DNA from: Ricordea florida | Taxonomy: Eukaryota; Cnidaria; Anthozoa; Corallimorpharia; Ricordeidae | Reading direction: 5' to 3' | Assembly (NCBI GenBank): GCA_949710005.1 | Contig: OX453272.1 | Span: 44,493,157 to 44,557,156 of the forward strand | Length of the DNA: 64,000 nucleotides | Part shown: positions 1-58,826 of the stretch, piece by piece | Position numbering within the stretch: position 1 is the stretch's first letter | Layout of the letters: each line of letters starts with the position of its first letter | The notes under the pieces: generated by a model | Seen by the model: the letters and a program-made list of their open reading frames with translations, nothing else | The model's database searches: none | Told to the model about the DNA's origin: nothing | Program-made: the position numbers and the translations under genes

Positions 1-3000
1 AACATAATACAAATGGATAACATTTAATGACTTAAGGTTGATTGATTGATTTCATTTTATCTAATGAACAGGATAAATAAGAATAAACTAAATTTACCTG
101 GACCTGCTGTAGTGCTTTCCTCTGTTTTAAATAAAGATATTTCAACATGTTAGCAGTAGTGATAACCAACACCGGATCGGCAGTCATATTAAATGACAGA
201 CTAGCGCGATTACGGCGTAGCAATATAATCACTATCTATTTTTCTTTCTTTCAGTTATTAAAAAGTTATTGGACAATTGACGTCATAGAAAAAAGTGTGT
301 GGCAAATTAAGAAATTGCTAATAGGGACATTAAATTATTCATACCTAAAGAACAAGTACTGCTTTTAATGGAATCAAACGAAAAGGCCGAGGCACAGTAA
401 GGTAACTTGTAATTTTAATGAAAAATCGGACATCTTCTAAGGCAGCCTAAGTGCTAAATTCAAATAAGAAACCATGCGCGCTAAATTACAGTGTAACTCA
501 ATAAGAAATATATTAAGGTATAAAGAAATAGTTTAGCCTTAGTTTGATAGCGAATGAAATAGCGAAAGTTGGCCAAAAACCGATTAAGAAATTATGTAGG
601 AAAATTGTAACGTTGCAAGCCTTGATAATTTTCAGGCAATAAATGGGTTTTTCGTTTTTTTTTTTTGACACAACTATTGCTGACATCTCAGTGGAGGATA
701 GAATTCACCTTATCTTGGTCCACCTTTTGCAAATGACTTCGTCGTTGATCTGCACGACTTTCCACATTACAAATTTTTGACTGTGATCAAATTTATCAAG
801 TTCAACGCCGCGGCGATTGCGTTTTGTTTTGTTTCTTTAAAACAAAAACGCTAAACATAAAGTCGCTACTCTTTTAAATTGTATTCTTACCAACTGGTGG
901 TCCTGTGCTCCCTTTATCCAGTCATAGAAGGATAGAAACATAGAAAGCAAAAATGATGACTCAAATTTTCATTGGTTACATTTTTAGAAGTAAAACACTA
1001 GAATTAGTTATCTATAACCCCCCAAAAAAATTCATGAACAAAGAAACAGTCCGAAAAACACAAACGTAGCCATGAGTTTGTCACTGTCTAAAAACAAATT
1101 AGATTAAAATGGCGTGCTTACCCGTTGGCCCTTCCGTGCTTCCTCCTGTTGGAAATAAAAGGAATACCATTTTTATATTAGTTACAGAAATCGTTGTGTT
1201 GTGGAACATAATACAAATGGATAACATTTAATGACTTAAGGTTGATTGATTGATTTCATTTTATCTAATGAACAGGATAAATAAGAATAAACTAAATTTA
1301 CCTGGACCTGCTGTAGTGCTTTCCTCTGTTTTAAATAAAGATATTTCAACATGTTAGCAGTAGTGATAACCAACACCGGATCGGCAGTCATATTAAATGA
1401 CAGACTAGCGCGATTACGGCGTAGCAATATAATCACTATCTATTTTTCTTTCTTTCAGTTATTAAAAAGTTATTGGACAATTGACGTCATAGAAAAAAGT
1501 GTGTGGCAAATTAAGAAATTGCTAATAGGGACATTAAATTATTCATACCTAAAGAACAAGTACTGCTTTTAATGGATCAAACGAAAAGGCCGAGGCACAG
1601 TAAGGTAACTTGTAATTTTAATGAAAAATCGGACATCTTCTAAGGCAGCCTAAGTGCTAAATTCAAATAAGAAACCATGCGCGCTAAATTACAGTGTAAC
1701 TCAATAAGAAATATATTAAGGTATAAAGAAATAGTTTAGCCTTAGTTTGATAGCGAATGAAATAGCGAAAGTTGGCCAAAAACCGATTAAGAAATTATGT
1801 AGGAAAATTGTAACGTTGCAAGCCTTGATAATTTTCAGGCAATAAATGGGTTTTTCGTTTTTTTTTTTTGACACAACTATTGCTGACATCTCAGTGGAGG
1901 ATAGAATTCACCTTATCTTGGTCCACCTTTTGCAAATGACTTCGTCGTTGATCTGCACGACTTTCCACATTACAAATTTTTGACTGTGATCAAATTTATC
2001 AAGTTCAACGCTGCGGCGATTGCGTTTTGTTTTGTTTCTTTAAAACAAAAACGCTAAACATAAAGTCGCTACTCTTTTAAATTGTATTCTTACCAACTGG
2101 TGGTCCTGTGCTCCCTTTATCCAGTCATAGAAGGATAGAAACATAGAAAGCAAAAATGATGACTCAAATTTTCATTGGTTACATTTTTAGAAGTAAAACA
2201 CTAGAATTAGTTATCTATAACCCCCCAAAAAAATTCATGAACAAAGAAACAGTCCGAAAAACACAAACGTAGCCATGAGTTTGTCACTGTCTAAAAACAA
2301 ATTAGATTAAAATGGCGTGCTTACCCGTTGGCCCTTCCGTGCTTCCTCCTGTTGGAAATAAAAGGAATACCATTTTTATATTAGTTACAGAAATCGTTGT
2401 GTTGTGGAACATAATACAAATGGATAACATTTAATGACTTAAGGTTGATTGATTGATTTCATTTTATCTAATGAACAGGATAAATAAGAATAAACTAAAT
2501 TTACCTGGACCTGCTGTAGTGCTTTCCTCTGTTTTAAATAAAGATATTTCAACATGTTAGCAGTAGTGATAACCAACACCGGATCGGCAGTCATATTAAA
2601 TGACAGACTAGCGCGATTACGGCGTAGCAATATAATCACTATCTATTTTTCTTTCTTTCAGTTATTAAAAAGTTATTGGACAATTGACGTCATAGAAAAA
2701 AGTGTGTGGCAAATTAAGAAATTGCTAATAGGGACATTAAATTATTCATACCTAAAGAACAAGTACTGCTTTTAATGGAATCAAACGAAAAGGCCGAGGC
2801 ACAGTAAGGTAACTTGTAATTTTAATGAAAAATCGGACATCTTCTAAGGCAGCCTAAGTGCTAAATTCAAATAAGAAACCATGCGCGCTAAATTACAGTG
2901 TAACTCAATAAGAAATATATTAAGGTATAAAGAAATAGTTTAGCCTTAGTTTGATAGCGAATGAAATAGCGAAAGTTGGCCAAAAACCGATTAAGAAATT

Positions 3001-6000
3001 ATGTAGGAAAATTGTAACGTTGCAAGCCTTGATAATTTTCAGGCAATAAATGGGTTTTTCGTTTTTTTTTTTTGACACAACTATTGCTGACATCTCAGTG
3101 GAGGATAGAATTCACCTTATCTTGGTCCACCTTTTGCAAATGACTTCGTCGTTGATCTGCACGACTTTCCACATTACAAATTTTTGACTGTGATCAAATT
3201 TATCAAGTTCAACGCCGCGGCGATTGCGTTTTGTTTTGTTTCTTTAAAACAAAAACGCTAAACATAAAGTCGCTACTCTTTTAAATTGTATTCTTACCAA
3301 CTGGTGGTCCTGTGCTCCCTTTATCCAGTCATAGAAGGATAGAAACATAGAAAGCAAAAATGATGACTCAAATTTTCATTGGTTACATTTTTAGAAGTAA
3401 AACACTAGAATTAGTTATCTATAACCCCCCAAAAAAATTCATGAACAAAGAAACAGTCCGAAAAACACAAACGTAGCCATGAGTTTGTCACTGTCTAAAA
3501 ACAAATTAGATTAAAATGGCGTGCTTACCCGTTGGCCCTTCCGTGCTTCCTCCTGTTGGAAATAAAAGGAATACCATTTTTATATTAGTTACAGAAATCG
3601 TTGTGTTGTGGAACATAATACAAATGGATAACATTTAATGACTTAAGGTTGATTGATTGATTTCATTTTATCTAATGAACAGGATAAATAAGAATAAACT
3701 AAATTTACCTGGACCTGCTGTAGTGCTTTCCTCTGTTTTAAATAAAGATATTTCAACATGTTAGCAGTAGTGATAACCAACACCGGATCGGCAGTCATAT
3801 TAAATGACAGACTAGCGCGATTACGGCGTAGCAATATAATCACTATCTATTTTTCTTTCTTTCAGTTATTAAAAAGTTATTGGACAATTGACGTCATAGA
3901 AAAAAGTGTGTGGCAAATTAAGAAATTGCTAATAGGGACATTAAATTATTCATATCTAAAGAACAAGTACTGCTTTTAATGGATCAAACGAAAAGGCCGA
4001 GGCACAGTAAGGTAACTTGTAATTTTAATGAAAAATCGGACATCTTCTAAGGCAGCCTAAGTGCTAAATTCAAATAAGAAACCATGCGCGCTAAATTACA
4101 GTGTAACTCAATAAGAAATATATTAAGGTATAAAGAAATAGTTTAGCCTTAGTTTGATAGCGAATGAAATAGCGAAAGTTGGCCAAAAACCGATTAAGAA
4201 ATTATGTAGGAAAATTGTAACGTTGCAAGCCTTGATAATTTTCAGGCAATAAATGGGTTTTTCGTTTTTTTTTTTTGACACAACTATTGCTGACATCTCA
4301 GTGGAGGATAGAATTCACCTTATCTTGGTCCACCTTTTGCAAATGACTTCGTCGTTGATCTGCACGACTTTCCACATTACAAATTTTTGACTGTGATCAA
4401 ATTTATCAAGTTCAACGCTGCGGCGATTGCGTTTTGTTTTGTTTCTTTAAAACAAAAACGCTAAACATAAAGTCGCTACTCTTTTAAATAGAGTACCGAA
4501 GTGTGACGTCACGTTACCATGGGCACGATTTGAGTGGTTCTAAACAAAGAGCATTCGAACCAACATGGCGGCCATAACGATAACTTCTCTTACTTCTTTT
4601 TTTTCTGGTGAGCCGAAATCAATCGAACGTGGTGAAAATCACTACAAATCCGACCATATAGAGTCTTTCCAGTATTCCAATGGAATGATTATAGGATTGG
4701 TACATGCCAGTATGAAGGACAAGTCTTACAAGGTCACGGTAAGTAAACTCACAAGTTCGGAACACTCGTAATCGTTTGTATAAAACTTTAATGTTCCCTC
4801 TGTTTACTTTGCAATACAGGTTTCTCTTCATGGGAATGAAATAAAGTCTGCTAAGTGCGAATGTCCCCGTGGAAACTATAAATGTAGCCATGCCGCGGCA
4901 CTTATTATCTATGGAATCCATAATCTTAGCCGAACAGATGTAGAATGCAAATGGCAAAAGCCCAGGGCCCCAAACCAAGTGAAATCCGTAGAAGAGTTAT
5001 ATCCTTGCCTAAAGGAGTATAATTGCCTTAAAAGAGAAGTAAACGAAGAGGATCGTTCCTGGTTCTACCAAGAATTGAAAAAGTACGGCAACTTTACCGG
5101 CACTTTGTGGCTTCTCTCTCCAGAGCCTGAAAAGAACAACGCCCTGCCTGCGATCACTGTAGAAGAGATTGTGTTGTCTCGGGAATTTCTAAATCATGCG
5201 GATAAGAAGAGATACCTTACCGAGAAACTTCGTATCTCTGAAGAGCAGCGTATAGCCGTAAATAAAGCCACCGTAAGACAACGAGATAACCCTTCCTGGC
5301 AAATGATAAGGAAAGGAAGACTCACAGCCAGCAATTTTGGAAATGTCTTAAACTGCAAGAGAGTCACTCCATCCCTTCTAAAGCGAGTGCTCGGCCAGTA
5401 CGATTTATCAAGGGTACAAGCCAATAATTGGGGCATAATTAACGAAAATCAGGCAAAGAAAATGTTTGAACAAAAAACAAAGCTATGTGTTGAAGAATCT
5501 GGGATTTGGCTTGAGCTGTCAGGAATGCTAGGTGCCTCCCCTGATGGCTTGGTAGGCACTTATGCACTGCTAGAGGTGAAGTGCCCATTCACCCAAAGAG
5601 ATTTAACCATAGAAGAAGCAGTATCATCAGGTAAATTTTATATCAAGAAGAATTCACAAGGACACTATGAACTCGATAAAGGATAATGATAATGATAATG
5701 AATTTATATAGCGCACTTTTTCATATGAATATGTTCAAAGGCGCTTTACAATTCTATTGGGTGAAATCGGATGTCGGCATGTAATAAAGGACATGTTTAC
5801 TGGCATCAAGTACAAGGACAGTTATATTTAACTGGAAGGGAGATTTGCTTTTTTGTTGTGTGGACAACAAAAGAAACCCTCATCCTCCAAATCAAAAAAG
5901 ATCCTGCCTGGGCTGACAATCTTCAACTCTTAAAGGACTTTTATATTAAGCATATTATTCCAGCATTCTCTAATGATCTACTGTAAGGCTACAGGCAGTC

Positions 6001-9000
6001 AGCAGCTCTGCAGACTGATTTTCATGAACATATGAAATTGTTGGAGACTGAACATTGTTAAAATCTCATGCATGTTTTTTCAGCATTTGTGAAAAACAAC
6101 TTTGGGTTGTGGTCATCTGATGTGATGTACAGAATAAATTGGTTGTGTTTTGCAAACTTGTGATGTTAATTAACTTAAGTCTTTGGGCAGACTGTAGAGA
6201 TATAAACATTTAATGGAATCAAACAAAATCATATTATGCTATATATACATGCATCATGTTCTAAGTATCAAAATATAGCTCACAGCTAGGGATGCATGTT
6301 TCATCTCAACTATACCCAACCAAGAATTAGAAAAAAATAATTCTATTCCATGTCAACAGAATCTCTAACTTCTCTAATGAGGGAGTTTTGTAAGTTTACC
6401 AAGCCAGCACATAATTTCAACACTTTTTCAGTGTAGCATCTCAAGTATGGTGGAATGAAGGTTAGAATCTTGAAATCTTTGATGCGTGCATTTGCCCTTT
6501 CAACATGAATTCTGCACCGTGCAATAGTCTTTGTTAGCTTAATTTCACTCTCGTTAAATTTCCCATTATATAAAAATGGGGGAATATTAACAGACACACC
6601 ATTTGGAACAATATCAGCTATCAAAAAGCCTTTGTCAGCAAGTATCAGATCCCCAGGTTTAAAGTGTTCTAGTACACCAGATTTTTCCACAATGGCTTTA
6701 TCTGATGTTGAGCCTGGAAACAATTTACTAACATGGGTAATAACAGCATTTGGTGCAACACCAATAAGTGTCTTGAAGGAGTTCATTCCCCTGTATGTTG
6801 AGTAAGTCAATTTTTGATCACTCATTAAACCAGGCGCTGCAATTTCTATATCAGTGCAGTCGATGACCATTTTGCAATGCCCAAACAGAGAAAAAGATTC
6901 TGGCATAGAGGTTCTGTTCTTCTCTTTGGATGGCACAGATTGTAAACAGTCTTCATATAGTAGCTTGTATAATACATGAACCAATGTAAGTATTATATTA
7001 CTGATTGTTGCAGTGCTACAGTGAAAGAGCTCAGCCAAGTGCAGGTTTGTGTAGTTCTGTCGTAACTTCATAAGGGTTATAAAAACTTGATCTTCCAACA
7101 GGATCCTTTCAACCCTCCAGCCATAAAAATAGTTAATTTCTGCCGAGAACCGTCTGACATAGTTCACAACAATTGAAAATATTTGCCTGTTTGGTAGACC
7201 TGTTTCCATACATATTACTTCATCTCTTAAAGCCATTACCGAGTATATTTCTCTTTGATATTGTTCATTTGACTTCCTGTCCTGCAATTCCTTTCTCAAG
7301 TTTTCCAGTTCGACTTCAAGAAGGATATTTTGCTTAGAGGCATTGCTGGTTTCACACTTTGAGGCTTCCCCACTTGATGAGTACGAATCGTTTAACTGCT
7401 TGATTATATCAGAAACCGGAACCGAGTCTTCTGAACTTGTCTTCTTCGTCTTAGCTCGCTTTGGCGTACGTGTTTCAGCATTTGGAAAGAGTTTATCGGC
7501 ATTTCTTTTAAATATCTCAGGGCCATTTACTTTCAGTCCTTCACGAAAATGACAGCTACAAACTCGAGAATTGCTTCCCGGACTTCGGTCTTCTCGTCTA
7601 TTAAAAGCAGATTCATTTCAAACGAACATTAATACATATTAAAAACCGTTGTTTTAAAGAGTAACTGATGAGGGATATCGAAGATTAAGAACAATAATAA
7701 GAATTCAAAGAGTCAAAGTTCAATTGTTCGAGTCGTCACGCCACTACCTAGCGCCGGTATTTCTAGCGTGTTTTACCTTACCTTAGGAGCTTTTTCCACC
7801 AATTGAACTCCACAGGATCCTTCGGAAACCTGAAAAATTTACATGTCTCCCTTTCTGATTGATGATTACAATCTGGGGCAAAACATTGAACCATTTTCGA
7901 CTTGTCCACGTTACGTTACCCAAAGAGAGACGCTATGTTGATCTTTTGTTTAGAACCAGCAAAAATGCTTCCATGGTAACGTGACGTCAGCGCTTCGGTA
8001 CTCTATTGTATTCTTACCAACTGGTGGTCCTGTGCTCCCTTTATCCAGTCATAGAAGGATAGAAACATAGAAAGCAAAAATGATGACTCAAATTTTCATT
8101 GGTTACATTTTTAGAAGTAAAACACTAGAATTAGTTATCTATAACCCCCCAAAAAAATTCATGAACAAAGAAACAGTCCGAAAAACACAAACGTAGCCAT
8201 GAGTTTGTCACTGTCTAAAAACAAATTAGATTAAAATGGCGTGCTTACCCGTTGGCCCTTCCGTGCTTCCTCCTGTTGGAAATAAAAGGAATACCATTTT
8301 TATATTAGTTACAGAAATCGTTGTGTTGTGGAACATAATACAAATGGATAACATTTAATGACTTAAGGTTGATTGATTGATTTCATTTTATCTAATGAAC
8401 AGGATAAATAAGAATAAACTAAATTTACCTGGACCTGCTGTAGTGCTTTCCTCTGTTTTAAATAAAGATATTTCAACATGTTAGCAGTAGTGATAACCAA
8501 CACCGGATCGGCAGTCATATTAAATGACAGACTAGCGCGATTACGGCGTAGCAATATAATCACTATCTATTTTTCTTTCTTTCAGTTATTAAAAAGTTAT
8601 TGGACAATTGACGTCATAGAAAAAAGTGTGTGGCAAATTAAGAAATTGCTAATAGGGACATTAAATTATTCATACCTAAAGAACAAGTACTGCTTTTAAT
8701 GGAATCAAACGAAAAGGCCGAGGCACAGTAAGGTAACTTGTAATTTTAATGAAAAATCGGACATCTTCTAAGGCAGCCTAAGTGCTAAATTCAAATAAGA
8801 AACCATGCGCGCTAAATTACAGTGTAACTCAATAAGAAATATATTAAGGTATAAAGAAATAGTTTAGCCTTAGTTTGATAGCGAATGAAATAGCGAAAGT
8901 TGGCCAAAAACCGATTAAGAAATTATGTAGGAAAATTGTAACGTTGCAAGCCTTGATAATTTTCAGGCAATAAATGGGTTTTTGGTTTTTTTTTTTTGAC

Positions 9001-12000: not shown

Positions 12001-15000
12001 ATCTAATGAACAGGATAAATAAGAATAAACTAAATTTACCTGGACCTGCTGTAGTGCTTTCCTCTGTTTTAAATAAAGATATTTCAACATGTTAGCAGTA
12101 GTGATAACCAACACCGGATCGGCAGTCATATTAAATGACAGACTAGCGCGATTACGGCGTAGCAATATAATCACTATCTATTTTTCTTTCTTTCAGTTAT
12201 TAAAAAGTTATTGGACAATTGACGTCATAGAAAAAAGTGTGTGGCAAATTAAGAAATTGCTAATAGGGACATTAAATTATTCATATCTAAAGAACAAGTA
12301 CTGCTTTTAATGGATCAAACGAAAAGGCCGAGGCACAGTAAGGTAACTTGTAATTTTAATGAAAAATCGGACATCTTCTAAGGCAGCCTAAGTGCTAAAT
12401 TCAAATAAGAAACCATGCGCGCTAAATTACAGTGTAACTCAATAAGAAATATATTAAGGTATAAAGAAATAGTTTAGCCTTAGTTTGATAGCGAATGAAA
12501 TAGCGAAAGTTGGCCAAAAACCGATTAAGAAATTATGTAGGAAAATTGTAACGTTGCAAGCCTTGATAATTTTCAGGCAATAAATGGGTTTTTCGTTTTT
12601 TTTTTTTGACACAACTATTGCTGACATCTCAGTGGAGGATAGAATTCACCTTATCTTGGTCCACCTTTTGCAAATGACTTCGTCGTTGATCTGCACGACT
12701 TTCCACATTACAAATTTTTGACTGTGATCAAATTTATCAAGTTCAACGCTGCGGCGATTGCGTTTTGTTTTGTTTCTTTAAAACAAAAACGCTAAACATA
12801 AAGTCGCTACTCTTTTAAATAGAGTACCGAAGTGTGACGTCACGTTACCATGGGCACGATTTGAGTGGTTCTAAACAAAGAGCATTCGAACCAACATGGC
12901 GGCCATAACGATAACTTCTCTTACTTCTTTTTTTTCTGGTGAGCCGAAATCAATCGAACGTGGTGAAAATCACTACAAATCCGACCATATAGAGTCTTTC
13001 CAGTATTCCAATGGAATGATTATAGGATTGGTACATGCCAGTATGAAGGACAAGTCTTACAAGGTCACGGTAAGTAAACTCACAAGTTCGGAACACTCGT
13101 AATCGTTTGTATAAAACTTTAATGTTCCCTCTGTTTACTTTGCAATACAGGTTTCTCTTCATGGGAATGAAATAAAGTCTGCTAAGTGCGAATGTCCCCG
13201 TGGAAACTATAAATGTAGCCATGCCGCGGCACTTATTATCTATGGAATCCATAATCTTAGCCGAACAGATGTAGAATGCAAATGGCAAAAGCCCAGGGCC
13301 CCAAACCAAGTGAAATCCGTAGAAGAGTTATATCCTTGCCTAAAGGAGTATAATTGCCTTAAAAGAGAAGTAAACGAAGAGGATCGTTCCTGGTTCTACC
13401 AAGAATTGAAAAAGTACGGCAACTTTACCGGCACTTTGTGGCTTCTCTCTCCAGAGCCTGAAAAGAACAACGCCCTGCCTGCGATCACTGTAGAAGAGAT
13501 TGTGTTGTCTCGGGAATTTCTAAATCATGCGGATAAGAAGAGATACCTTACCGAGAAACTTCGTATCTCTGAAGAGCAGCGTATAGCCGTAAATAAAGCC
13601 ACCGTAAGACAACGAGATAACCCTTCCTGGCAAATGATAAGGAAAGGAAGACTCACAGCCAGCAATTTTGGAAATGTCTTAAACTGCAAGAGAGTCACTC
13701 CATCCCTTCTAAAGCGAGTGCTCGGCCAGTACGATTTATCAAGGGTACAAGCCAATAATTGGGGCATAATTAACGAAAATCAGGCAAAGAAAATGTTTGA
13801 ACAAAAAACAAAGCTATGTGTTGAAGAATCTGGGATTTGGCTTGAGCTGTCAGGAATGCTAGGTGCCTCCCCTGATGGCTTGGTAGGCACTTATGCACTG
13901 CTAGAGGTGAAGTGCCCATTCACCCAAAGAGATTTAACCATAGAAGAAGCAGTATCATCAGGTAAATTTTATATCAAGAAGAATTCACAAGGACACTATG
14001 AACTCGATAAAGGATAATGATAATGATAATGAATTTATATAGCGCACTTTTTCATATGAATATGTTCAAAGGCGCTTTACAATTCTATTGGGTGAAATCG
14101 GATGTCGGCATGTAATAAAGGACATGTTTACTGGCATCAAGTACAAGGACAGTTATATTTAACTGGAAGGGAGATTTGCTTTTTTGTTGTGTGGACAACA
14201 AAAGAAACCCTCATCCTCCAAATCAAAAAAGATCCTGCCTGGGCTGACAATCTTCAACTCTTAAAGGACTTTTATATTAAGCATATTATTCCAGCATTCT
14301 CTAATGATCTACTGTAAGGCTACAGGCAGTCAGCAGCTCTGCAGACTGATTTTCATGAACATATGAAATTGTTGGAGACTGAACATTGTTAAAATCTCAT
14401 GCATGTTTTTTCAGCATTTGTGAAAAACAACTTTGGGTTGTGGTCATCTGATGTGATGTACAGAATAAATTGGTTGTGTTTTGCAAACTTGTGATGTTAA
14501 TTAACTTAAGTCTTTGGGCAGACTGTAGAGATATAAACATTTAATGGAATCAAACAAAATCATATTATGCTATATATACATGCATCATGTTCTAAGTATC
14601 AAAATATAGCTCACAGCTAGGGATGCATGTTTCATCTCAACTATACCCAACCAAGAATTAGAAAAAAATAATTCTATTCCATGTCAACAGAATCTCTAAC
14701 TTCTCTAATGAGGGAGTTTTGTAAGTTTACCAAGCCAGCACATAATTTCAACACTTTTTCAGTGTAGCATCTCAAGTATGGTGGAATGAAGGTTAGAATC
14801 TTGAAATCTTTGATGCGTGCATTTGCCCTTTCAACATGAATTCTGCACCGTGCAATAGTCTTTGTTAGCTTAATTTCACTCTCGTTAAATTTCCCATTAT
14901 ATAAAAATGGGGGAATATTAACAGACACACCATTTGGAACAATATCAGCTATCAAAAAGCCTTTGTCAGCAAGTATCAGATCCCCAGGTTTAAAGTGTTC

Positions 15001-18000
15001 TAGTACACCAGATTTTTCCACAATGGCTTTATCTGATGTTGAGCCTGGAAACAATTTACTAACATGGGTAATAACAGCATTTGGTGCAACACCAATAAGT
15101 GTCTTGAAGGAGTTCATTCCCCTGTATGTTGAGTAAGTCAATTTTTGATCACTCATTAAACCAGGCGCTGCAATTTCTATATCAGTGCAGTCGATGACCA
15201 TTTTGCAATGCCCAAACAGAGAAAAAGATTCTGGCATAGAGGTTCTGTTCTTCTCTTTGGATGGCACAGATTGTAAACAGTCTTCATATAGTAGCTTGTA
15301 TAATACATGAACCAATGTAAGTATTATATTACTGATTGTTGCAGTGCTACAGTGAAAGAGCTCAGCCAAGTGCAGGTTTGTGTAGTTCTGTCGTAACTTC
15401 ATAAGGGTTATAAAAACTTGATCTTCCAACAGGATCCTTTCAACCCTCCAGCCATAAAAATAGTTAATTTCTGCCGAGAACCGTCTGACATAGTTCACAA
15501 CAATTGAAAATATTTGCCTGTTTGGTAGACCTGTTTCCATACATATTACTTCATCTCTTAAAGCCATTACCGAGTATATTTCTCTTTGATATTGTTCATT
15601 TGACTTCCTGTCCTGCAATTCCTTTCTCAAGTTTTCCAGTTCGACTTCAAGAAGGATATTTTGCTTAGAGGCATTGCTGGTTTCACACTTTGAGGCTTCC
15701 CCACTTGATGAGTACGAATCGTTTAACTGCTTGATTATATCAGAAACCGGAACCGAGTCTTCTGAACTTGTCTTCTTCGTCTTAGCTCGCTTTGGCGTAC
15801 GTGTTTCAGCATTTGGAAAGAGTTTATCGGCATTTCTTTTAAATATCTCAGGGCCATTTACTTTCAGTCCTTCACGAAAATGACAGCTACAAACTCGAGA
15901 ATTGCTTCCCGGACTTCGGTCTTCTCGTCTATTAAAAGCAGATTCATTTCAAACGAACATTAATACATATTAAAAACCGTTGTTTTAAAGAGTAACTGAT
16001 GAGGGATATCGAAGATTAAGAACAATAATAAGAATTCAAAGAGTCAAAGTTCAATTGTTCGAGTCGTCACGCCACTACCTAGCGCCGGTATTTCTAGCGT
16101 GTTTTACCTTACCTTAGGAGCTTTTTCCACCAATTGAACTCCACAGGATCCTTCGGAAACCTGAAAAATTTACATGTCTCCCTTTCTGATTGATGATTAC
16201 AATCTGGGGCAAAACATTGAACCATTTTCGACTTGTCCACGTTACGTTACCCAAAGAGAGACGCTATGTTGATCTTTTGTTTAGAACCAGCAAAAATGCT
16301 TCCATGGTAACGTGACGTCAGCGCTTCGGTACTCTATTGTATTCTTACCAACTGGTGGTCCTGTGCTCCCTTTATCCAGTCATAGAAGGATAGAAACATA
16401 GAAAGCAAAAATGATGACTCAAATTTTCATTGGTTACATTTTTAGAAGTAAAACACTAGAATTAGTTATCTATAACCCCCCAAAAAAATTCATGAACAAA
16501 GAAACAGTCCGAAAAACACAAACGTAGCCATGAGTTTGTCACTGTCTAAAAACAAATTAGATTAAAATGGCGTGCTTACCCGTTGGCCCTTCCGTGCTTC
16601 CTCCTGTTGGAAATAAAAGGAATACCATTTTTATATTAGTTACAGAAATCGTTGTGTTGTGGAACATAATACAAATGGATAACATTTAATGACTTAAGGT
16701 TGATTGATTGATTTCATTTTATCTAATGAACAGGATAAATAAGAATAAACTAAATTTACCTGGACCTGCTGTAGTGCTTTCCTCTGTTTTAAATAAAGAT
16801 ATTTCAACATGTTAGCAGTAGTGATAACCAACACCGGATCGGCAGTCATATTAAATGACAGACTAGCGCGATTACGGCGTAGCAATATAATCACTATCTA
16901 TTTTTCTTTCTTTCAGTTATTAAAAAGTTATTGGACAATTGACGTCATAGAAAAAAGTGTGTGGCAAATTAAGAAATTGCTAATAGGGACATTAAATTAT
17001 TCATACCTAAAGAACAAGTACTGCTTTTAATGGAATCAAACGAAAAGGCCGAGGCACAGTAAGGTAACTTGTAATTTTAATGAAAAATCGGACATCTTCT
17101 AAGGCAGCCTAAGTGCTAAATTCAAATAAGAAACCATGCGCGCTAAATTACAGTGTAACTCAATAAGAAATATATTAAGGTATAAAGAAATAGTTTAGCC
17201 TTAGTTTGATAGCGAATGAAATAGCGAAAGTTGGCCAAAAACCGATTAAGAAATTATGTAGGAAAATTGTAACGTTGCAAGCCTTGATAATTTTCAGGCA
17301 ATAAATGGGTTTTTGGTTTTTTTTTTTTGACACAACTATTGCTGACATCTCAGTGGAGGATAGAATTCACCTTATCTTGGTCCACCTTTTGCAAATGACT
17401 TCGTCGTTGATCTGCACGACTTTCCACATTACAAATTTTTGACTGTGATCAAATTTATCAAGTTCAACGCCGCGGCGATTGCGTTTTGTTTTGTTTCTTT
17501 AAAACAAAAACGCTAAACATAAAGTCGCTACTCTTTTAAATTGTATTCTTACCAACTGGTGGTCCTGTGCTCCCTTTATCCAGTCATAGAAGGATAGAAA
17601 CATAGAAAGCAAAAATGATGACTCAAATTTTCATTGGTTACATTTTTAGAAGTAAAACACTAGAATTAGTTATCTATAACCCCCCAAAAAAATTCATGAA
17701 CAAAGAAACAGTCCGAAAAACACAAACGTAGCCATGAGTTTGTCACTGTCTAAAAACAAATTAGATTAAAATGGCGTGCTTACCCGTTGGCCCTTCCGTG
17801 CTTCCTCCTGTTGGAAATAAAAGGAATACCATTTTTATATTAGTTACAGAAATCGTTGTGTTGTGGAACATAATACAAATGGATAACATTTAATGACTTA
17901 AGGTTGATTGATTGATTTCATTTTATCTAATGAACAGGATAAATAAGAATAAACTAAATTTACCTGGACCTGCTGTAGTGCTTTCCTCTGTTTTAAATAA

Positions 18001-27000: not shown

Positions 27001-30000
27001 GTCCAACTTTTGCAAATGACTTCGTCGTTGATCTGCACGACTTTCCACATTACAAATTTTTGACTGTGATCAAATTTATCAAGTTCAACGCTGCGGCGAT
27101 TGCGTTTTGTTTTGTTTCTTTAAAACAAAAACGCTAAACATAAAGTCGCTACTCTTTTAAATTGTATTCTTACCAACTGGTGGTCCTGTGCTCCCTTTAT
27201 CCAGTCATAGAAGGATAGAAACATAGAAAGCAAAAATGATGAGTCAAATTTTCATTGGTTACATTTTTAGAAGTAAAACACTAGAATTAGTTACCTATAA
27301 CCCCCCAAAAAATTCATGAACAAAGAAACAATCCGAAAAACACAAACGTAGCCATGAGTTTGTCACTGTCTAAAAACAAATTAGATTAAAATGGCGTGCT
27401 TACCCGTTGGCCCTTCCGTGCTTCCTCCTGTTGGAAATAAAAGGAATACCATTTTTATATTAGTTACAGAAATCGTTGTGTTGTGGAACATAATACAAAT
27501 GGATAACATTTAATGACTTAAGGTTGATTGATTGATATTATTTTATCTAATGAACAGGATAAATAAGAATAAACTAAATTTACCTGGACCTGCTGTAGTG
27601 CTTTCCTCTGTTTTAAATAAAGATATTTCAACATGTTAGCAGTAGTGATAACCAACACCGGATCGGCAGTCATATTAAATGACAGACTAGCGCGATTACG
27701 GCGTAGCAATATAATCACTATCTATTCTTCTTTCTTTCAGTTATTAAAAAGTTATTGGACAATTGACGTCATAGAAAAAAGTTCGTGGCAAATTAAGAAA
27801 TGGCTAATAGGGACATTAAATTATTCATACCTAAAGAACAAGTACTGCTTTTAATGGAATCAAACGAAGAGGCCGAGGCACAGTAAGGTAACTTGTAATT
27901 TCAATGAAAAATCGGACATCTTCTAAGGCAGCCTAAGTGCTAAATTGAAATAAGAAACCATGCGCGCTAAATTACAGTGTAACTCAATAAGAAATATATT
28001 AAGGTATAAAGAAATAGTTTAGCCTTAGTTTGATAGCGGATGAAATAGCGAAAGTTGGCCAAAAACCGATTAAGAAATTATGTAGGAAAATTGTAACGTT
28101 GCAAGCCTTGATAATTTTCAGGCAATAAATGGGTTTTTCGGTTTTTTTATTTGACACAACTATTGCTGACATCTCAGTGGAGGATAGAATTCACCTTATC
28201 TTGGTCCAACTTTTGCAAATGACTTCGTCGTTGATCTGCACGACTTTCCACATTACAAATTTTTGACTGTGATCAAATTTATCAAGTTCAACGCTGCGGC
28301 GATTGCGTTTTGTTTTGTTTCTTTAAAACAAAAACGCTAAACATAAAGTCGCTACTCTTTTAAATTTTATTCTTACCAACTGGTGGTCCTGTGCTCCCTT
28401 TATCCAGTCATAGAAGGATAGAAACATAGAAAGCAAAAATGATGACTCAAATTTTCATTGGTTACATTTTTAGAAGTAAAACACTAGAAATAGTTACCTA
28501 TAACCCCCCAAAAAATTCATTAACAAAGAAACAATCCGAAAAACACAAACGTAGCCATGAGTTTGTCACTGTCTAAAAACAAATTAGATTAAAATGGCGT
28601 GCTTACCCGTTGGCCCTTCCGTGCTTCCTCCTGTTGGAAATAAAAGGAATACCATTTTTATATTAGTTACAGAAATCGTTGTGTTGTGGAACATAATACA
28701 AATGGATAACATTTAATGATTTAAGGTTGATTGATTGATATTATTTTATCTAATGAACAGGATAAATAAGAATAAACTAAATTTACCTGGACCTGCTGTA
28801 GTGCTTTCCTCTGTTTTAAATAAAGATATTTCAACATGTTAGCAGTAGTGATAACCAACACCGGATCGGCAGTCATATTAAATGACAGACTAGCGCGATT
28901 ACGGCGTAGCAATATAATCACTATCTATTTTTCTTTCTTTCAGTTATTAAAAAGGTTTTGGACAATTGACGTCATAGAAAAAAGTTTGTGGCAAATTAAG
29001 AAATTGCTAATAGGGACATTAAATTATTCATACCTAAAGAACAAGTACTGCTTTTAATGGAATCAAACGAAGAGGCCGAGGCACAGTAAGGTAACTTGTA
29101 ATTTTAATGAAAAATCGGACATCTTCTAACGCAGCCGAAGTGCTAAATTGAAATAAGAAACCATGCGCGCTAAATTACAGTGTAACTTAATAAGAAATAT
29201 ATTAAGGTATAAAGAAATAGTTTAGCCTTAGTTTTATAGCGGATGAAATAGCGAAAGTTGGCCAAAAACCGATTAAGAAATTATGTAGGAAAATTGTAAC
29301 GTTGCAAGCCTTGATAATTTTCAGGCAATAAATGGGTTTTTCGTTTTTTTTTTTTGACACAACTATTGCTGACATCTCAGTGGAGGATAGAATTCACCTT
29401 ATCTTGGTCCAACTTTTGCAAATGACTTCGTCGTTGATCTGCACGACTTTCCACATTACAAATTTTTGACTGTGATCAAATTTATCAAGTTCAACGCTGC
29501 GGCGATTGCGTTTTGTTTTGTTTCTTTAAAACAAAAACGCTAAACATAAAGTCGCTACTCTTTTAAATTGTATTCTTACCAACTGGTGGTCCTGTGCTCC
29601 CTTTATCCAGTCATAGAAGGATAGAAACATAGAAAGCAAAAATGATGACTCAAATTTTCATTGGTTACATTTTTGAAGTAAAACACTAGAAATAGTTACC
29701 TATAACCCCCCAAAAAATTCATTAACAAAGAAACAATCCGAAAAACACAAACGTAGCCATGAGTTTGTCACTGTCTAAAAACAAATTAGATTAAAATGGC
29801 GTGCTTACCCGTTGGCCCTTCCGTGCTTCCTCCTGTTGGAAATAAAAGGAATACCATTTTTATATTAGTTACAGAAATCGTTGTGTTGTGGAACATAATA
29901 CAAATGGATAACATTTAATGATTTAAGGTTGATTGATTGATATTATTTTATCTAATGAACAGGATAAATAAGAATAAACTAAATTTACCTGGACCTGCTG

Positions 30001-33000
30001 TAGTGCTTTCCTCTGTTTTAAATAAAGATATTTCAACATGTTAGCAGTAGTGATAACCAACACCGGATCGGCAGTCATATTAAATGACAGACTAGCGCGA
30101 TTACGGCGTAGCAATATAATCACTATCTATTTTTCTTTCTTTCAGTTATTAAAAAGTTATTGGACAATTGACGTCATAGAAAAAAGTGTGTGGCAAATTA
30201 AGAAATTGCTAATAGGGACATTAAATTATTCATACCTAAAGAACAAGTACTGCTTTTAATGGAATCAAACGAAAAGGCCGAGGCACAGTAAGGTAACTTG
30301 TAATTTTAATGAAAAATCGGACATCTTCTAATGCAGCCGAAGTGCTAAATTGAAATAAGAAACCATGCGCGCTAAATTACAGTGTAACTTAATAAGAAAT
30401 ATATTAAGGTATAAAGAAATAGTTTAGCCTTAGTTTTATAGCGGATGAAATAGCGAAAGTTGGCCAAAAACCGATTAAGAAATTATGTAGGAAAATTGTA
30501 ACGTTGCAAGCCTTGATAATTTTCAGGCAATAAATGGGTTTTTCGTTTTTTTTTTTTGACACAACTATTGCTGACATCTCAGTGGAGGATAGAATTCACC
30601 TTATCTTGGTCCAACTTTTGCAAATGACTTCGTCGTTGATCTGCACGACTTTCCACATTACAAATTTTTGACTGTGATCAAATTTATCAAGTTCAACGCT
30701 GCGGCGATTGCGTTTTGTTTTGTTTCTTTAAAACAAAAACGCTAAACATAAAGTCGCTACTCTTTTAAATTGTATTCTTACCAACTGGTGGTCCTGTGCT
30801 CCCTTTATCCAGTCATAGAAGGATAGAAACATAGAAAGCAAAAATGATGACTCAAATTTTCATTGGTTACATTTTTAGAAGTAAAACACTAGAATTAGTT
30901 ACCTATAACCCCCCAAAAAAATTCATGAACAAAGAAACAGTCCGAAAAACACAAACGTAGCCATGAGTTTGTCACTGTCTAAAAACAAATTAGATTAAAA
31001 TGGCGTGCTTACCCGTTGGCTCTTCCGTGCTTTCTCCTGTTGTAAATAAAAGGAATACCATTTTTATATTAGTTACAGAAATCGTTGTGTTGTGGAACAT
31101 AATACAAATGGATAACATTTAATGACTTAAGGTTGATTGATTGATTTCATTTTATCTAATGAACAGGATAAATAAGAATAAACTAAATTTACCTGGACCT
31201 GCTGTAGTGCTTTCCTCTGTTTTAAATAAAGATATTTCAACATGTTAGCAGTAGTGATAACCAACACCGGATCGGCAGTCATATTAAATGACAGACTAGC
31301 GCGATTACGGCGTAGCAATATAATCACTATCTATTTTTCTTTCTTTCAGTTATTAAAAAGTTATTGGACAATTGACGTCATAGAAGAAAGTTTGTGGCAA
31401 ATTAAGAAATGGCTAATAGGGACATTAAATTATTCATACCTAAAGAACAAGTACTGCTTTTAATGGAATCAAACGAAGAGGCCGAGGCACAGTAAGGTAA
31501 ATTGTAATTTTAATTAAAAATCGGACATCTTCTAAGGCATCCGAAGTGCTAAATTCAAATAAGAAACCATGCGCGCTAAATTACAGTGTAACTCAATAAG
31601 AAATATATTAAGGTATAAAGAAATAGTTTAGCCTTAGTTTTATAGCGAATGAAATAGCGAAAGTTGGCCCAAAACCGATTAAGAAATTATGTAGGAAAAT
31701 TGTAACGTTGCAAGCCTTGATAATTTTCAGGCAATAAATGGGTTTTTCGTTTTTTTTTTTTGACACAACTATTGCTGACATCTCAGTGGAGGATAGAATT
31801 CACCTTATCTTGGTCCACCTTTTGCAAATGACTTCGTCGTTGATCTGCACGACTTTCCACATTACAAATTTTTGACTGTGATCAAATTTATCAAGTTCAA
31901 CGCTGCGGCGATTGCGTTTTGTTTTGTTTCTTTAAAACAAAAACGCTAAACATAAAGTCGCTACTCTTTTAAATTGTATTCTTACCAACTGGTGGTCCTG
32001 TGCTCCCTTTATCCAGTCATAGAAGGATAGAAACATAGAAAGCAAAAATGATGACTCAAATTTTCATTGGTTACATTTTTAGAAGTAAAACACTAGAATT
32101 AGTTACCTATAACCCCCCAAAAAATTCATGAACAAAGAAACAATCCGAAAAACACAAACGTAGCCATGAGTTTGTCACTGTCTAAAAACAAATTAGATTA
32201 AAATGGCGTGCTTACCCGTTGGCCCTTCCGTGCTTCCTCCTGTTGGAAATAAAAGGAATACCATTTTTATATTAGTTACAGAAATCGTTGTGTTGTGGAA
32301 CATAATACAAATGGATAACATTTAATGATTTAAGGTTGATTGATTGATATTATTTTATCTAATGAACAGGATAAATAAGAATAAACTAAATTTACCTGGA
32401 CCTGCTGTAGTGCTTTCCTCTGTTTTAAATAAAGATATTTCAACATGTTAGCAGTAGTGATAACCAACACCGGATCGGCAGTCATATTAAATGACAGACT
32501 AGCGCGATTACGGCGTAGCAATATAATCACTATCTATTCTTCTTTCTTTCAGTTATTAAAAAGTTATTGGACAATTGACGTCATAGAAAAAAGTTTGTGG
32601 CAAATTAAGAAATGGCTAATAGGGACATTAAATTATTCATACCTAAAGAACAAGTACTGCTTTTAATGGAATCAAACGAAGAGGCCGAGGCACAGTAAGG
32701 TAACTTGTAATTTTAATGAAAAATCGGACATCTTCTAATGCAGCCGAAGTGCTAAATTGAAATAAGAAACCATGCGCGCTAAATTACAGTGTAACTTAAT
32801 AAGAAATATATTAAAATATAAAGAAATAGTTTAGCCTTAGTTTTATAGCGAATGAAATAGCGAAAGTTGTTAAAAAACCGATTAAGATGTAGGAAAATTG
32901 TAACGTTGCAAGCCTTGATAATTTTCAGGCAATAAATGGGTTTTTCGGTTTTTTTTTTGACACAACTATTGCTGACATCTCAGTGGAGGATAGAATTCAC

Positions 33001-36000
33001 CTTATCTTGGTCCAACTTTTGCAAATGACTTCGTCGTTGATCTGCACGACTTTGCACATTACAAATTTTTGACTGTGATCAAATTTATCAAGTTCAACGC
33101 TGCGGCGATTGCGTTTTGTTTTGTTTCTTTAAAACAAAAACGCTAAACATAAAGTCGCTACTCTTTTAAATTGTATTCTTACCAACTGGTGGTCCTGTGC
33201 TCCCTTTATCCAGTCATAGAAGGATAGAAACATAGAAAGCAAAAATGATGACTCAAATTTTCATTGGTTACATTTTTAGAAGTAAAACACTAGAAATAGT
33301 TATCTATAACCCCCCAAAAAAATTCATGAACAAAGAAACAGTCCGAAAAACACAAACGTAGCCATGAGTTTGTCACTGTCTAAAAACAAATTAGATTAAA
33401 ATGGCGTGCTTACCCGTTGGCCCTTCCGTGCTTCCTCCTGTTGGAAATAAAAGGAATACCATTTTTATATTAGTTACAGAAATCGTTGTGTTGTGGAACA
33501 TAATACAAATGGATAACATTTAATGACTTAAGGTTAATTAATTGATTTCATTTTATCTAATGAACAGGATAAATAAGAATAAACTAAATTTACCTGGACC
33601 TGCTGTAGTGCTTTCCTCTGTTTTAAATAAAGATATTTCAACATGTTAGCAGTAGTGATAACCAACGCCGGATCGGCAGTCATATTAAATGACAGACTAG
33701 CGCGATTACGGCGTAGCAATATAATCACTATCTATTTTTCTTTCTTTCAGTTATTAAAAAGTTATTGGACAATTGACGTCATAGAAGAAAGTTTGTGGCA
33801 AATTAAGAAATGGCTAATAGGGACATTAAATTATTCATACCTAAAGAACAAGTACTGCTTTTAATGGAATCAAACGAAGAGGCCGAGGCACAGTAAGGTA
33901 AATTGTAATTTTAATTAAAAATCGGACATCTTCTAAGGCATCCGAAGTGCTAAATTGAAATAAGAAACCATGCGCGCTAAATTACAGTGTAACTCAATAA
34001 GAAATATATTAAGGTATAAAGAAATAGTTTAGCCTTAGTTTGATAGCGGATGAAATAGCGAAAGTTGGCTAAAAACCGATTAAGAAATTATGTAGGAAAA
34101 TTGTAACTTTGCTAGCCTTGATAATTTTTAGGCAATAAATGGGTTTTTCGTTTTTTTTTTTTGACACAACTATTGCTGACATCTCAGTGGAGGATAGAAT
34201 TCACCTTATCTTGGTCCAACTTTTGCAAATGACTTCGTCGTTGATCTGCACGACTTTCCACATTACAAATTTTTGACTGTGATCAAATTTATCAAGTTCA
34301 ACGCTGCGGCGATTGCGTTTTGTTTTGTTTCTTTAAAACAAAAACGCTAAACATAAAGTCGCTACTCTTTTAAATTGTATTCTTACCAACTGGTGGTCCT
34401 GTGCTCCCTTTATCCAGTCATAGAAGGATAGAAACATAGAAAGCAAAAATGATGACTCAAATTTTCATTGGTTACATTTTTAGAAGTAAAACACTAGAAA
34501 TAGTTACCTATAACCCCCCAAAAAATTCATGAACAAAGAAACAATCCGAAAAACACAAACGTAGCCATGAGTTTGTCACTGTCTAAAAACAAATTAGATT
34601 AAAATGGCGTGCTTACCCGTTGGCCCTTCCGTGCTTCCTCCTGTTGGAAATAAAAGGAATACCATTTTTATATTAGTTACAGAAATCGTTGTGTTGTGGA
34701 ACATAATACAAATGGATAACATTTAATGATTTAAGGTTGATTGATTGATTTCATTTTATGTACTGATCAGGATATGTAAGAATGATCTAAATCTAAAACA
34801 AAAGCCGTTGTTGTAGTCTCCTCTGATTTTAATAAAGATATTTAATCATTTGTTGTGCATAATTGAGGTTATTTTAACAACACTTAACCTAACAACACTT
34901 TTATGGATAAGGAATCAACTGCAGGACACTTTGGTATCCTTGTAGTTTAGACATGATACAAATAGATAAAAATTACTTTTTAATTAAAAGGTGATCGGCC
35001 TCTACATAATGAGCAAAATGGATAAGAAATAACGAAGTTTACCTGCAGGTGGTGCAGTAGTTCCTGCTGTTGAAATTAAAACAAGAGATTTTGAAAAAGT
35101 GAGCATTCACTATAAGCAAGCATCTGCTCGTAGCATTGATATTTTCAAATACAGTATTAAGAATATTGCGGGAAATAATCTGGTTAGCCTTACACTGTGC
35201 TTTAAAGTGTTGTTAAGATTTCCACCTGTCTTTATGTTTGAAAGTATACTAGTGACCCACAGTATAATTATTAACATTTAGATGTAGACACTGGTTGAAT
35301 GTTTATAAGTTTTTGAAGAAACATGGGACAAGACAGTTTTGAGATATTGTGTAATATCTCGCCAAAATAATTTTGGGATGTATTATTATTTCCAAGCACA
35401 ATGCCCTGGGGATAAAAAATAGCACTATGAATCATCGATCACGCAACATTAAGAGGGTAGAGGTAGTGGGGTTTGGGCGAATTGGATGGGGGAAAAAGTG
35501 CTTGTCGGTCCAAGATATTTGGCAAAGATGGTAGCTTGTGAGGCAAGAAAAACTTCGTTTATGTTTTTAGCTTAAAAGGCGGCCAAATCGCAATCCAAGT
35601 GAATCATTCTTTTCCATTAATGTTAAACAGTGTTCTTTTACAGTCAAATCACTCTACAAAAGCTCTGGCAGGCCTTAATTAGGATACGACGAAGGGCTAA
35701 CGCTCGAAACGTCATCACCTCACTTTAACCTTACGGTGGTATAACTTACTTAATCAACTCGTTTGATTTACCCATTTTCTTAATTAGGATACTGTGATTA
35801 ACCCTCAGCAAAGAGGCTTACCACATGGTTCGTTAGTGCATTGCTTTGTTTCTGTATCGGGACCCATCATCTGTTGCTCGCAGGTTTTCCCGCAGTTCTT
35901 GGGAAGGGGATTGGTGCAAGTTCTGGAACGGGAACGACTGCCCACGCCACATGTTTGGGAACATTCGGACCATTCACTCCATTCGGTATATCCGCCATCA

Positions 36001-56849: not shown

Positions 56850-57735
56850 AGTCACTCAGTCACGTTTTTACTCACTCACGCACTCACTCACGCACCCACT
56901 CACGCACTCACTCACGCACTCGCTCACCAACTCACTCTCACACTTTTCAATTCCGAGCTCACTCGCTCATTCACCGATTCTTACTCCAGCACCACTCACC
57001 TACTCAGTCTCTCACTTACTTACCAATTCATTTAGCACCCCCCACACACTAATTTACTCATTCACTCGCACAATCTACTTACTCAAACGACTTAGTCGTT
57101 CACTTAATGACTCACTCACTAACTTACTCTCACCCACTGAGTTACTCACTCACTTACTAACTTACTTACTCACTCACTTACTAACTTACTTACGCACTCA
57201 CTCACTCATTTACTCACTGAATTACTCACTCACTTACTCACTTACTCACTCACTCACTTACTCACTCACTCAGTTACTTACTCACTCACTCCCCTCCTCA
57301 CTCACTCACTCACTCACTCACTCACTCACTCCCCTCCTCACTCACTCACTCACTCACTCACTTACTCACTCACCCACTCACTCACTTACTTACTCACTTA
57401 CTCACTCATTTACTTACTCTCACCCACCGACTTACTCACTTACTCACTCACTACTCACCCACTCAGTCTCTCACTTAATCACTAATGCCCTTACCAGCCC
57501 CATTCGGTTACTCACTCAATGCAGCTTCCTCATTAACTTCACTACACTTCACAATCACTCTCGTACATCTTACTCACCCATTTACTCTCTCACTCAGTCA
57601 CTGATTCACTTACCACCCCTTCTAAGTTACTCACTTACTCAATCTACTCACTTAATTCACTGTCTCTTTTACTAACTCAATCACTTACTAACTTACTTAC
57701 TCACCCACGTAATCCACTCACTCTCTTACTCTCTC
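56850..57735. repeat. (TCAC)n-type imperfect microsatellite tract
   Basis: Nearly 900 bp of ctcactcactca with point variants (ctta, ccc, cgca). The 279-codon plus frame through it (SLTHSLTH repeats) is a by-product of the repeat. Confidence 0.9.
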
Positions 57736-58085: not shown

Positions 58086-58267
58086 ATATCGACGGTGGAT
58101 ATACAGTGTGGAGTGAATGGTCTGAATGTTCTCAAACTTGTGATGGAGGCGTTCGTTGGCGATACAGAAATTGTACCAACCCTCCCCCAAAGAGTAATGA
58201 AGGAACAAGGAACAAGAGGAACTGGGACCTAGCGAGGAATCAGGAGCCTGCAATACTGAAGGATGTC
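58086..58267 (+). pseudogene. TSP1 exon, frameshifted
   Basis: A TSP1 exon with acceptor tcttatag and donor gtatgt. It starts [20 protein letters not shown] and keeps the Trp ladder and first Cys pair. It is 182 nt instead of the 183 nt of the five intact exons on the other strand, and the frame changes after PPPKSNEG. The remaining part ([15 protein letters not shown]) is readable only in the next frame, and one expected Cys block is missing. It lies directly after the VWA exon in transcript order. Confidence 0.75.
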
Positions 58268-58541
58268 GTATGTACTCTTAGTTCAGAGATCTTATTGCAC
58301 TTTTACTTTACAATTGCCTCTGAGGCAGATTTACACAGTCGATGAAAAGCTGAAAATCAGTGTAGGAGATATTACAGTACCCCATGAAGTACTGCAGCAT
58401 CCAGACGTATGTCACTTGGGAAGCTTACTTCCAATTGATGAAAGAGACAAGCGCGAGAAAAGTGAGAGTAAACTGAAAATGTCCGACGAGCATTCGTTAT
58501 ATGACTTGCTTATGCGAGCAGGAAAGACGAGACCCACTTCG

Positions 58542-58826
58542 CCGTCGTAACATTCGCGGATAAAGCAAAAGTTCAAGTATGCTTTGATCAGTCAAAATAT
58601 TACAGTAAGAGAGCACTGAAGAACTTACTTTTCAACATAAAGCAAAATGCTCGTTTTAAGCTAGCCTGCAAATGTAGGCAAAGCCATAAAACTAGTAGAC
58701 AAAAAAGTTTTCAATGTCAACATGGGCGATCGGCCAGAGGCCCCGGATGTTATGATCATTTTTACAGATGGTGGGAAACGTGAGCCTTCAGAATCGTTCA
58801 GCTCAGTCATTGCTCCGCTAGAAGTA
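58542..58826 (+). pseudogene. VWA domain central segment, frameshifted
   Basis: ETHFAVVTFADKAKVQVCFD continues to LKNLLFNIKQNAR in one frame. VGKAIKLVDKKVFNVNM and EAPDVMIIFTDGGKREP follow in another, ending at a donor gtaaga at 58827. These match VWA strands, including the TFADKA and IFTDGG motifs. At least one frameshift lies near 58670, so it is a broken copy downstream of the TSP1 exon. Confidence 0.65.

Follow-up and report, generated by a model that had tools for sequence, protein, structure and literature searches.

The gene layout closest to the one described here is known from a parasite. In the SmPoMuc genes of Schistosoma mansoni, a 27-bp exon lies within a genomic repeat of ~1 kb, and these repeats stand in tandem, are more than 93% identical and are homogenised; a gene holds up to 20 repeats and its mRNAs up to 100, repeat number varies between genes, and exon differences are kept between clusters, according to the portion of PMC2576457 drawn on here. 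The discussion of that paper, in the same portion, adds spider silk genes, in which protein repeats match exon-intron genomic repeats under concerted evolution. The schistosome micro-exon genes (MEGs), as treated in the part of PMC5825161 used here, have symmetric exons of 6-36 bp that make up ~80% of the coding region and encode secreted or membrane-anchored products, some predicted to be O-glycosylated; the repetition described for them in that paper is a duplication within MEG-26. Among cnidarians, the SA8 peptide genes of sea anemones have three to five microexons and large introns (PMC10210398, in excerpt). Here we analysed a stretch of 64,000 nucleotides (henceforth the window) from the corallimorpharian Ricordea florida (contig OX453272.1, positions 44,493,157 to 44,557,156 of the forward strand) and found a long tandem array of 21-24-nt segments that, as we read the sequence, is very probably an array of coding microexons inside a gene for a protein with TSP1 domains.

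A search of the minus strand for three short segments, a, b and c, allowing up to eight substitutions in 35-36 nt and no indels, recovered 23 copies of each in the window, exactly the 69 minus-strand microexons in ~1.2-kb units that an earlier note on this DNA had proposed. The lengths are 24 nt (a), 24 nt (b) and 21 nt (c), the same 24/21/24 series as in that note once the order is read as b, c, a. All are phase 1-1, preceded by AG and followed by GT, and they read EESTTAGP, GGSTEGPT and GSTGPPV, respectively. In transcription order, a unit consists of a, a 156-nt intron, b, an intron of ~210 nt, c, and an intron of ~768 nt. It measures ~1,203 bp, with spacings of 180 nt (a-b), 232-234 nt (b-c) and 783-790 nt (c-a), save at two exceptional gaps in the array where the c-a spacing is 4,306 nt, and it contains one 13-nt inverted-repeat pair that is 92% complementary. 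Together the three segments spell the 23-residue repeat EESTTAGPGGSTEGPTGSTGPPV, with 35% S+T, 17% P and neither K nor R, a composition that qualifies as mucin-like in the sense of S/T/P-rich tandem repeats.

The array runs ~7 kb past window position 1, to window-equivalent -7104 (C1:44486052 of the 537.8-Mb, 48-contig genome G000, in which the window is C1:44493157-44557156). This outer part holds six further copies each of b, c and a, which brings the whole array to 29 of each, or 87 microexons; 28 units are complete, unit 1 contributes just b and c, and a partial last unit adds one a. The last a is slightly altered yet open (EESTKTAL). Across the 87 counted microexons there are 0 stops and 0 frameshifts, and AG and GT are intact, in a search that admitted substitutions only and from which three broken edge segments were excluded. 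When one unit was searched against the genome, this locus alone was returned (three first-look candidates, one of them scored). The exact pattern of microexon a had 0 matches in IMG/VR and 0 in GTDB contigs, virus and prokaryote collections in which such an absence says little.

The array is flanked by exons of the same strand and phase (Table 1). A signal-peptide-like first exon, five TSP1 exons and a long minisatellite exon precede it, and the TSP_1 domain lies above the curated PF00090 cut-off in five of five TSP1 exons; one intron between TSP1 exons contains a 15-bp repeat in 58 copies (window 40516-41377). All microexons are phase 1-1 between same-strand, same-phase exons, as the earlier note had held for the five TSP1 exons, and the exon at 35066 likewise has the right form. 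The region of this single diverged microexon (micro0; 35091-35007) aligns to microexon a plus flanks at 69% over 85 nt. Past the array, on the gene's strand, come a 54-nt S/T-rich candidate exon and, 25 kb from the array, an exon pair for a VWA domain, the first of which enters in phase 1 and leaves in phase 0 after YSEIMPAFE. The match to PF00092 of the first exon's frame, together with the agreement of strand and phase, suggests a VWA domain of the same gene, which would then be in the same transcript as the array. The 98 predicted exons (87 microexons, micro0, the 54-nt exon and nine others) give, once joined, a stop-free reading frame of 1,629 codons. Their introns carry AG/GT and are all in phase 1, save for the one inside the VWA domain, which is in phase 0. 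The exon chain leaves the frame in phase 1 at its end, and thus the gene continues further. Placing the array in a TSP1/mucin-like gene is therefore upheld by in-phase exons on both sides that join without a stop. The array does not end where the window does, and its units number 29 in all, compared with the 23 given for the window.

The best VWA paralogue in the genome, 51% identical, lies at C1:43990771-43991142, on the same strand as the best TSP1 match outside the gene (59%) and 3.2 kb from it. It has an exon candidate with the same phases, ending after YSEILPSLE at the residue homologous to the YSEIMPAFE end, in a scan that sought the phase 1-in/0-out combination only.

Table 1. Features of the predicted gene and its microexon array, in window coordinates (negative numbers are window-equivalent positions beyond the window)
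Feature	Position	Strand	Remarks
Exon 1: start codon and signal-peptide-like MKLYWLCALFVCFVSCE (by eye), phase 1 donor score 7.15	45801..45852	-	joins in frame
TSP1 exon 1, 183 nt, phase 1-1	45241..45423	-	PF00090, E 6.4e-12
Exon 3, 1,263-nt minisatellite, (EETTVPP)n, phase 1-1	43177..44439	-	TRF, 59.3 copies of 21 bp
TSP1 exon 2, 183 nt, phase 1-1	41601..41783	-	PF00090, E 2.8e-11
TSP1 exon 3, 183 nt, phase 1-1	38895..39077	-	PF00090, E 1.7e-8
TSP1 exon 4, 183 nt, phase 1-1	37208..37390	-	PF00090, E 1.2e-9
TSP1 exon 5, 183 nt, phase 1-1	35822..36004	-	PF00090, E 9.7e-12
micro0, single diverged microexon, 24 nt, AGTTAPPA, AG / GTAAAC, phase 1	35043..35066	-	
Array, ~1,203-bp units, a/b/c x23 in window	1..34860	-	continues outside window
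Degenerate microexon a of unit 1, array edge	34799..34822	-	donor lost, uncounted
Example microexon a (EESTTAGP), 24 nt	33594..33617	-	acceptor 1.66, donor 4.8; second-best pair of unit
Example microexon b (GGSTEGPT), 24 nt	33414..33437	-	acceptor 6.08, donor 6.74; best pair of unit
Example microexon c (GSTGPPV), 21 nt	33183..33203	-	weak AAAG acceptor -3.54, donor 2.61
DNA transposon (DDE_Tnp_4 transposase -, YqaJ/SWIM protein +) in c-a intron, unit 16	12821..16335	.	AT flanks; ends approximate to a base
Second copy of DNA transposon, unit 20	4490..8004	.	Pfam run on this copy
54-nt S/T-rich candidate exon GEPTVTTAPSSESTTSPT, beyond window	-12954..-13007	-	
VWA domain, two exons, beyond window	-32584..-33008 and -34463..-34616	-	first exon PF00092, E 5e-22

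Splice sites were scored with generic metazoan matrices that were not trained on this genome. Among the AG..GT pairs of 9-36 nt in a unit, b and a come first and second. We counted as mucin-like those pairs of this size that score at least as high as c, are open in phase 1 and consist of at least 75% S/T/P/G/E/A. One unit holds eight of them, nested pairs included, whereas 1,000 dinucleotide shuffles of it averaged 0.056 and never held more than two. In 138 overlapping tiles of real sequence from the window outside the array, among them the gene's own upstream exons, the average was 0.24 and the highest count four, and 2.2% of the tiles had three or more. Under a fixed threshold, below which microexon c falls, there were 57 non-overlapping mucin-like small-exon candidates on the minus strand of the array in 42 kb and 0 on its opposite strand; elsewhere, over 161 kb of either strand, the plus strand had 0 and the minus strand six, two of the six coming from this gene model. 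Since the units are copies of one another, only about one of them, together with its neighbours, counts as independent evidence. No microexon array was seen in the 3.2 kb scanned, on both strands, at each of 15 further TSP1 matches. Sense small-exon candidates occurred at four of these 15 loci: one of 33 nt at L019, one of 12 nt each at L026 and L030, and four at L031, these last mostly inside a longer S/T-rich open stretch that is also readable as one or two ordinary exons. The same scan gave candidates at two of five loci in this gene and antisense candidates at 0/20 over all loci.

The units of the array are homogenised to different degrees. Units 9-26 are 0-0.4% apart and units 2-8 up to 2.3% apart among themselves, while unit 1 differs from units 2-28 by 3.6-5.3%. 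At the other end, unit 27 is mostly about 1-2% from other units, unit 28 mostly 2-3% (up to 3.2%), and unit 29 7-10% (up to 8.2% from units 2-28), mostly in the long c-a intron. Units 4 and 27, from opposite array ends, differ by 0.3%, and no substitutions were found within the pair 10/13 or among units 11, 14, 18 and 22. A DNA transposon with DDE_Tnp_4 and YqaJ proteins, presumably ISL2EU-like, forms part of a period of 8,331 bp whose repetition shows a single difference over 11.1 kb, and the two transposon-bearing units, of 4,720 bp, are identical. These distances are what unequal exchange or gene conversion acting on blocks of units would produce, and the edges of the array are decaying. 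The near-identical units and the multi-unit duplication bear out the view of the earlier note that the repeat grew by copying whole exon-intron units.

The product is probably a secreted or surface modular protein of one animal gene, with the predicted domain order signal peptide, TSP1, (EETTVPP)n stalk, four TSP1, a long S/T/P/G/E-rich stalk, and then probably VWA. The second stalk would be encoded as 29 near-identical genomic units of ~1.2 kb plus a partial last unit, with the microexons presumably spliced into the mRNA. Symmetric phase 1-1 microexons would allow units or single microexons to be gained, lost or skipped with the frame intact; given near-identical introns and symmetric microexons, unequal exchange would change the length of the stalk, following the logic of a minisatellite at the level of exon-intron units. 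The array may thus act as an adjustable stalk between the TSP1 and, probably, VWA domains, in a spacer or adhesive role, and the composition of the 23-residue repeats suggests that they could be O-glycosylated. On this gene model, two routes to S/T/P-rich length variation, a minisatellite exon and a microexon array, coexist in one gene.

This layout is like that of the SmPoMuc genes in its mucin-like product and in its homogenised tandem repeats of ~1 kb with a symmetric exon below 30 nt, here predicted to be of 24/24/21 nt in 29 units of ~1,203 bp. The earlier note pointed to schistosome micro-exon genes with symmetric tiny exons but not to the SmPoMuc genes, which have this layout (PMC2576457). 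For cnidarians, no precedent for the array was found in the portion of the literature on microexons, exon duplication and mucin-like repeats in corals and other cnidarians that was covered. The resemblance is, by this analogy, one of layout only, in a distant lineage. SmPoMuc genes have one exon per repeat and at most 20 repeats, in contrast to three per unit and 29 units here. Their repeats have polypurine microsatellites between them and a hammerhead ribozyme, whereas Rfam at the gathering threshold returned 0 matches to any RNA family in the window. They form a multigene family, whereas the array unit occurs here at one locus only, with few candidates scored, and the TSP1 and VWA domains found here go unmentioned for SmPoMuc in the portion of PMC2576457 that we used. 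What is probably new is that an SmPoMuc-like layout occurs in a cnidarian and that each of its units holds three microexons.

The other systems are less close. MEGs share the small symmetric exons and differ from the near-identical long array inside a large modular gene described here. Although 88 of the 98 predicted exons measure 6-36 bp, they make up only about 2.0 of 4.9 kb of joined coding sequence, and not most of it as in a MEG. SA8 genes have few exons and an unrelated product, and a tandem microexon array is not described for them in the excerpt of PMC10210398. Mucins with a variable number tandem repeat in one large exon, of which exon 3 is an example, have tandem S/T/P-rich repeats too; the copying unit is 21 bp within an exon in the exon 3 minisatellite versus ~1.2 kb of exons and introns in the array. 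With the spider silk genes, a different protein class, the likeness lies in protein repeats that match exon-intron genomic repeats, as far as the discussion in PMC2576457 describes them. The coral skeletal proteins coadhesin and mucin-like are named in the part of PMC4043741 used here, and we claim no relation between them and this gene.

If the array is coding, the gene would be an independent cnidarian case in which a mucin-type repeat expanded by exon-intron units and not as a minisatellite, and the minisatellite exon in the same gene would permit a direct comparison of the two growth routes. Exons this small are likely to escape gene prediction and short-read mapping, and the protein may therefore be misannotated wherever it is present. 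The gene would also test whether the spliceosome can link 87 exons of 21-24 nt without error, and whether transcripts lengthen with the number of genomic copies, bearing in mind the up to 100 repeats in mRNA versus 20 in the gene given for SmPoMuc in the portion of PMC2576457 drawn on.

Several observations weigh against a coding array with a VWA domain at its far end, and those within the array concern mainly the microexons themselves. Microexon c ranks only thirteenth in the unit because of its AAAG acceptor. Three edge segments are broken and uncounted: in the first a, that of unit 1, 10 of 24 positions are altered and the donor is not in place, and in the partial last unit b is largely deleted and c lacks a recognisable donor. 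Variable columns in units 2-28 number 3 of 69 in exons versus 68 of 1057 in introns (p = 0.80), and 5 of 147 when splice sites are added to the exons (p = 0.195); all three variable columns of b are amino-acid changes. With exon columns as variable as intron columns, purifying selection is not visible in the array, which is too young for a test of exon constraint. Undetected constraint, degenerate or deleted edge copies, a weak c acceptor and symmetric exons that can be skipped without harm would all fit a large intronic tandem repeat with once-coding microexons, most or all of which are skipped in the mature mRNA. We nonetheless hold this to be decidedly unlikely, given that all 87 microexons counted by the substitutions-only search, the three broken edge segments aside, are free of stops and frameshifts with their AG/GT intact, that b and a outscore every other splice pair of the unit, and that the single-copy neighbours, micro0 and the 54-nt exon, share phase and composition with the array. 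It is more improbable still that the assembly has inflated the copy number, part of the array being a haplotype or overlap duplication. The 11.1 kb repeated at a period of 8,331 with one difference, identical transposon insertion included, would be expected in that case, yet units 1-8 and 27-29 are mostly about 1% or more from the others, and a separate period of three units is apparent from the substitution-free pairs 10/13 and 11/14, as expected of recurrent unequal exchange.

The far end of the gene model is where the coding reading meets its other difficulties. The donor of the 54-nt exon is poor (GTTATT, score 0.0) and that of the first VWA exon weak (0.8). The VWA acceptor chosen, which was picked by its position in the paralogue, scores 3.1, less than the 6.9 of a phase-1 acceptor that lies in frame 54 nt upstream of it. 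We identified the second VWA exon by eye, and the 1.4 kb that follow the first VWA exon of the paralogue showed no counterpart to it; in the paralogue, moreover, VWA comes before TSP1 and not after it as here. The microexons could be real and the gene could still end at or soon after the array, with the VWA pair belonging to another gene. The order in the paralogue at C1:43.99 Mb, with VWA upstream of TSP1, speaks for such an end, as do nearly 20 kb with Polinton-like genes between the 54-nt exon and the VWA pair and a reverse-transcriptase-like frame (by eye) between the array and the 54-nt exon. We consider a separate VWA gene unlikely, however, since the VWA domain starts in phase 1 as all preceding exons do, a crude regular-expression search for signal-peptide starts between the array and the VWA pair gave 12 matches of which none was convincing by eye, and no minus-strand TSP1 match fell between the array and 43.99 Mb among the best 150 of 483 candidates.

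Two further outcomes of the column comparison were rejected. Over units 2-29, exons appeared constrained (p = 0.026; p = 0.0002 for exons plus splice sites), a result driven by the divergent edge unit 29. Over the 23 units in the window, exons appeared more variable than introns (13/69 versus 75/1137, p = 0.0009), which traced to the degenerate first a; without unit 1 the counts were 3/69 versus 51/1135 (p = 1).

Copying of symmetric exon-intron units recurs in this genome. In the paralogous cluster at C1:43977191-43991142 (minus strand; L018, L040, L041 and L043), four TSP1 matches follow one another at intervals of exactly 2,498 bp, and the three 2,498-bp units between them are 99.4-99.8% identical. 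At C8:2131179-2244884 (minus strand), at least 104 VWA matches stand at multiples of ~886 bp over 114 kb, with 150 matches scored. In an 8.5-kb sample of this array (L048) the units measure 882-888 bp, each has a VWA exon candidate of 573 nt in phase 1-1, and the compared stretches are 99-100% identical; the array is possibly one giant VWA-array gene. A tentative and rather doubtful extension would make exon-unit copying a general genomic habit, with stalk length set by allelic unequal exchange and per-transcript microexon inclusion, evolved independently of SmPoMuc; it would span the mucin stalk of at least 87 microexons, the TSP1 exon array, and the VWA array of at least 104 units elsewhere. 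On that reading, individuals and cells would differ in the adhesive stalks that they make from a single locus, much as for the SmPoMuc genes of the parasite. Within the window, on the strand opposite to the gene, 58118-58780 (+) contains what by eye is a TSP1-like frame and, no more than 0.4 kb after it, a sub-cut-off VWA match (E 0.0039), and this stretch looks like a degenerate relative.

Some features lie apart from the gene. Polinton-like gene sets occur at window-equivalent about -14900 to -28400 and -41000 to -58000, in opposite orientations, with Polinton-like fragments near -81000 to -92000 (the sets and fragments being loci L002-L010); Pfam gave one A32-type ATPase (E 1.4e-11) and one sub-cut-off capsid match (E 4e-4), the remainder having been recognised by eye. 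A 4-bp ACTC-type repeat is present in 155 copies at window 56870-57483. Matches to the GFP family, in keeping with an anthozoan, number 61 in this genome versus 0 in 14 control genomes; they cluster mostly at C11 8.97-19.7 Mb, with a few on C4 and C15, and many have stops inside the match.

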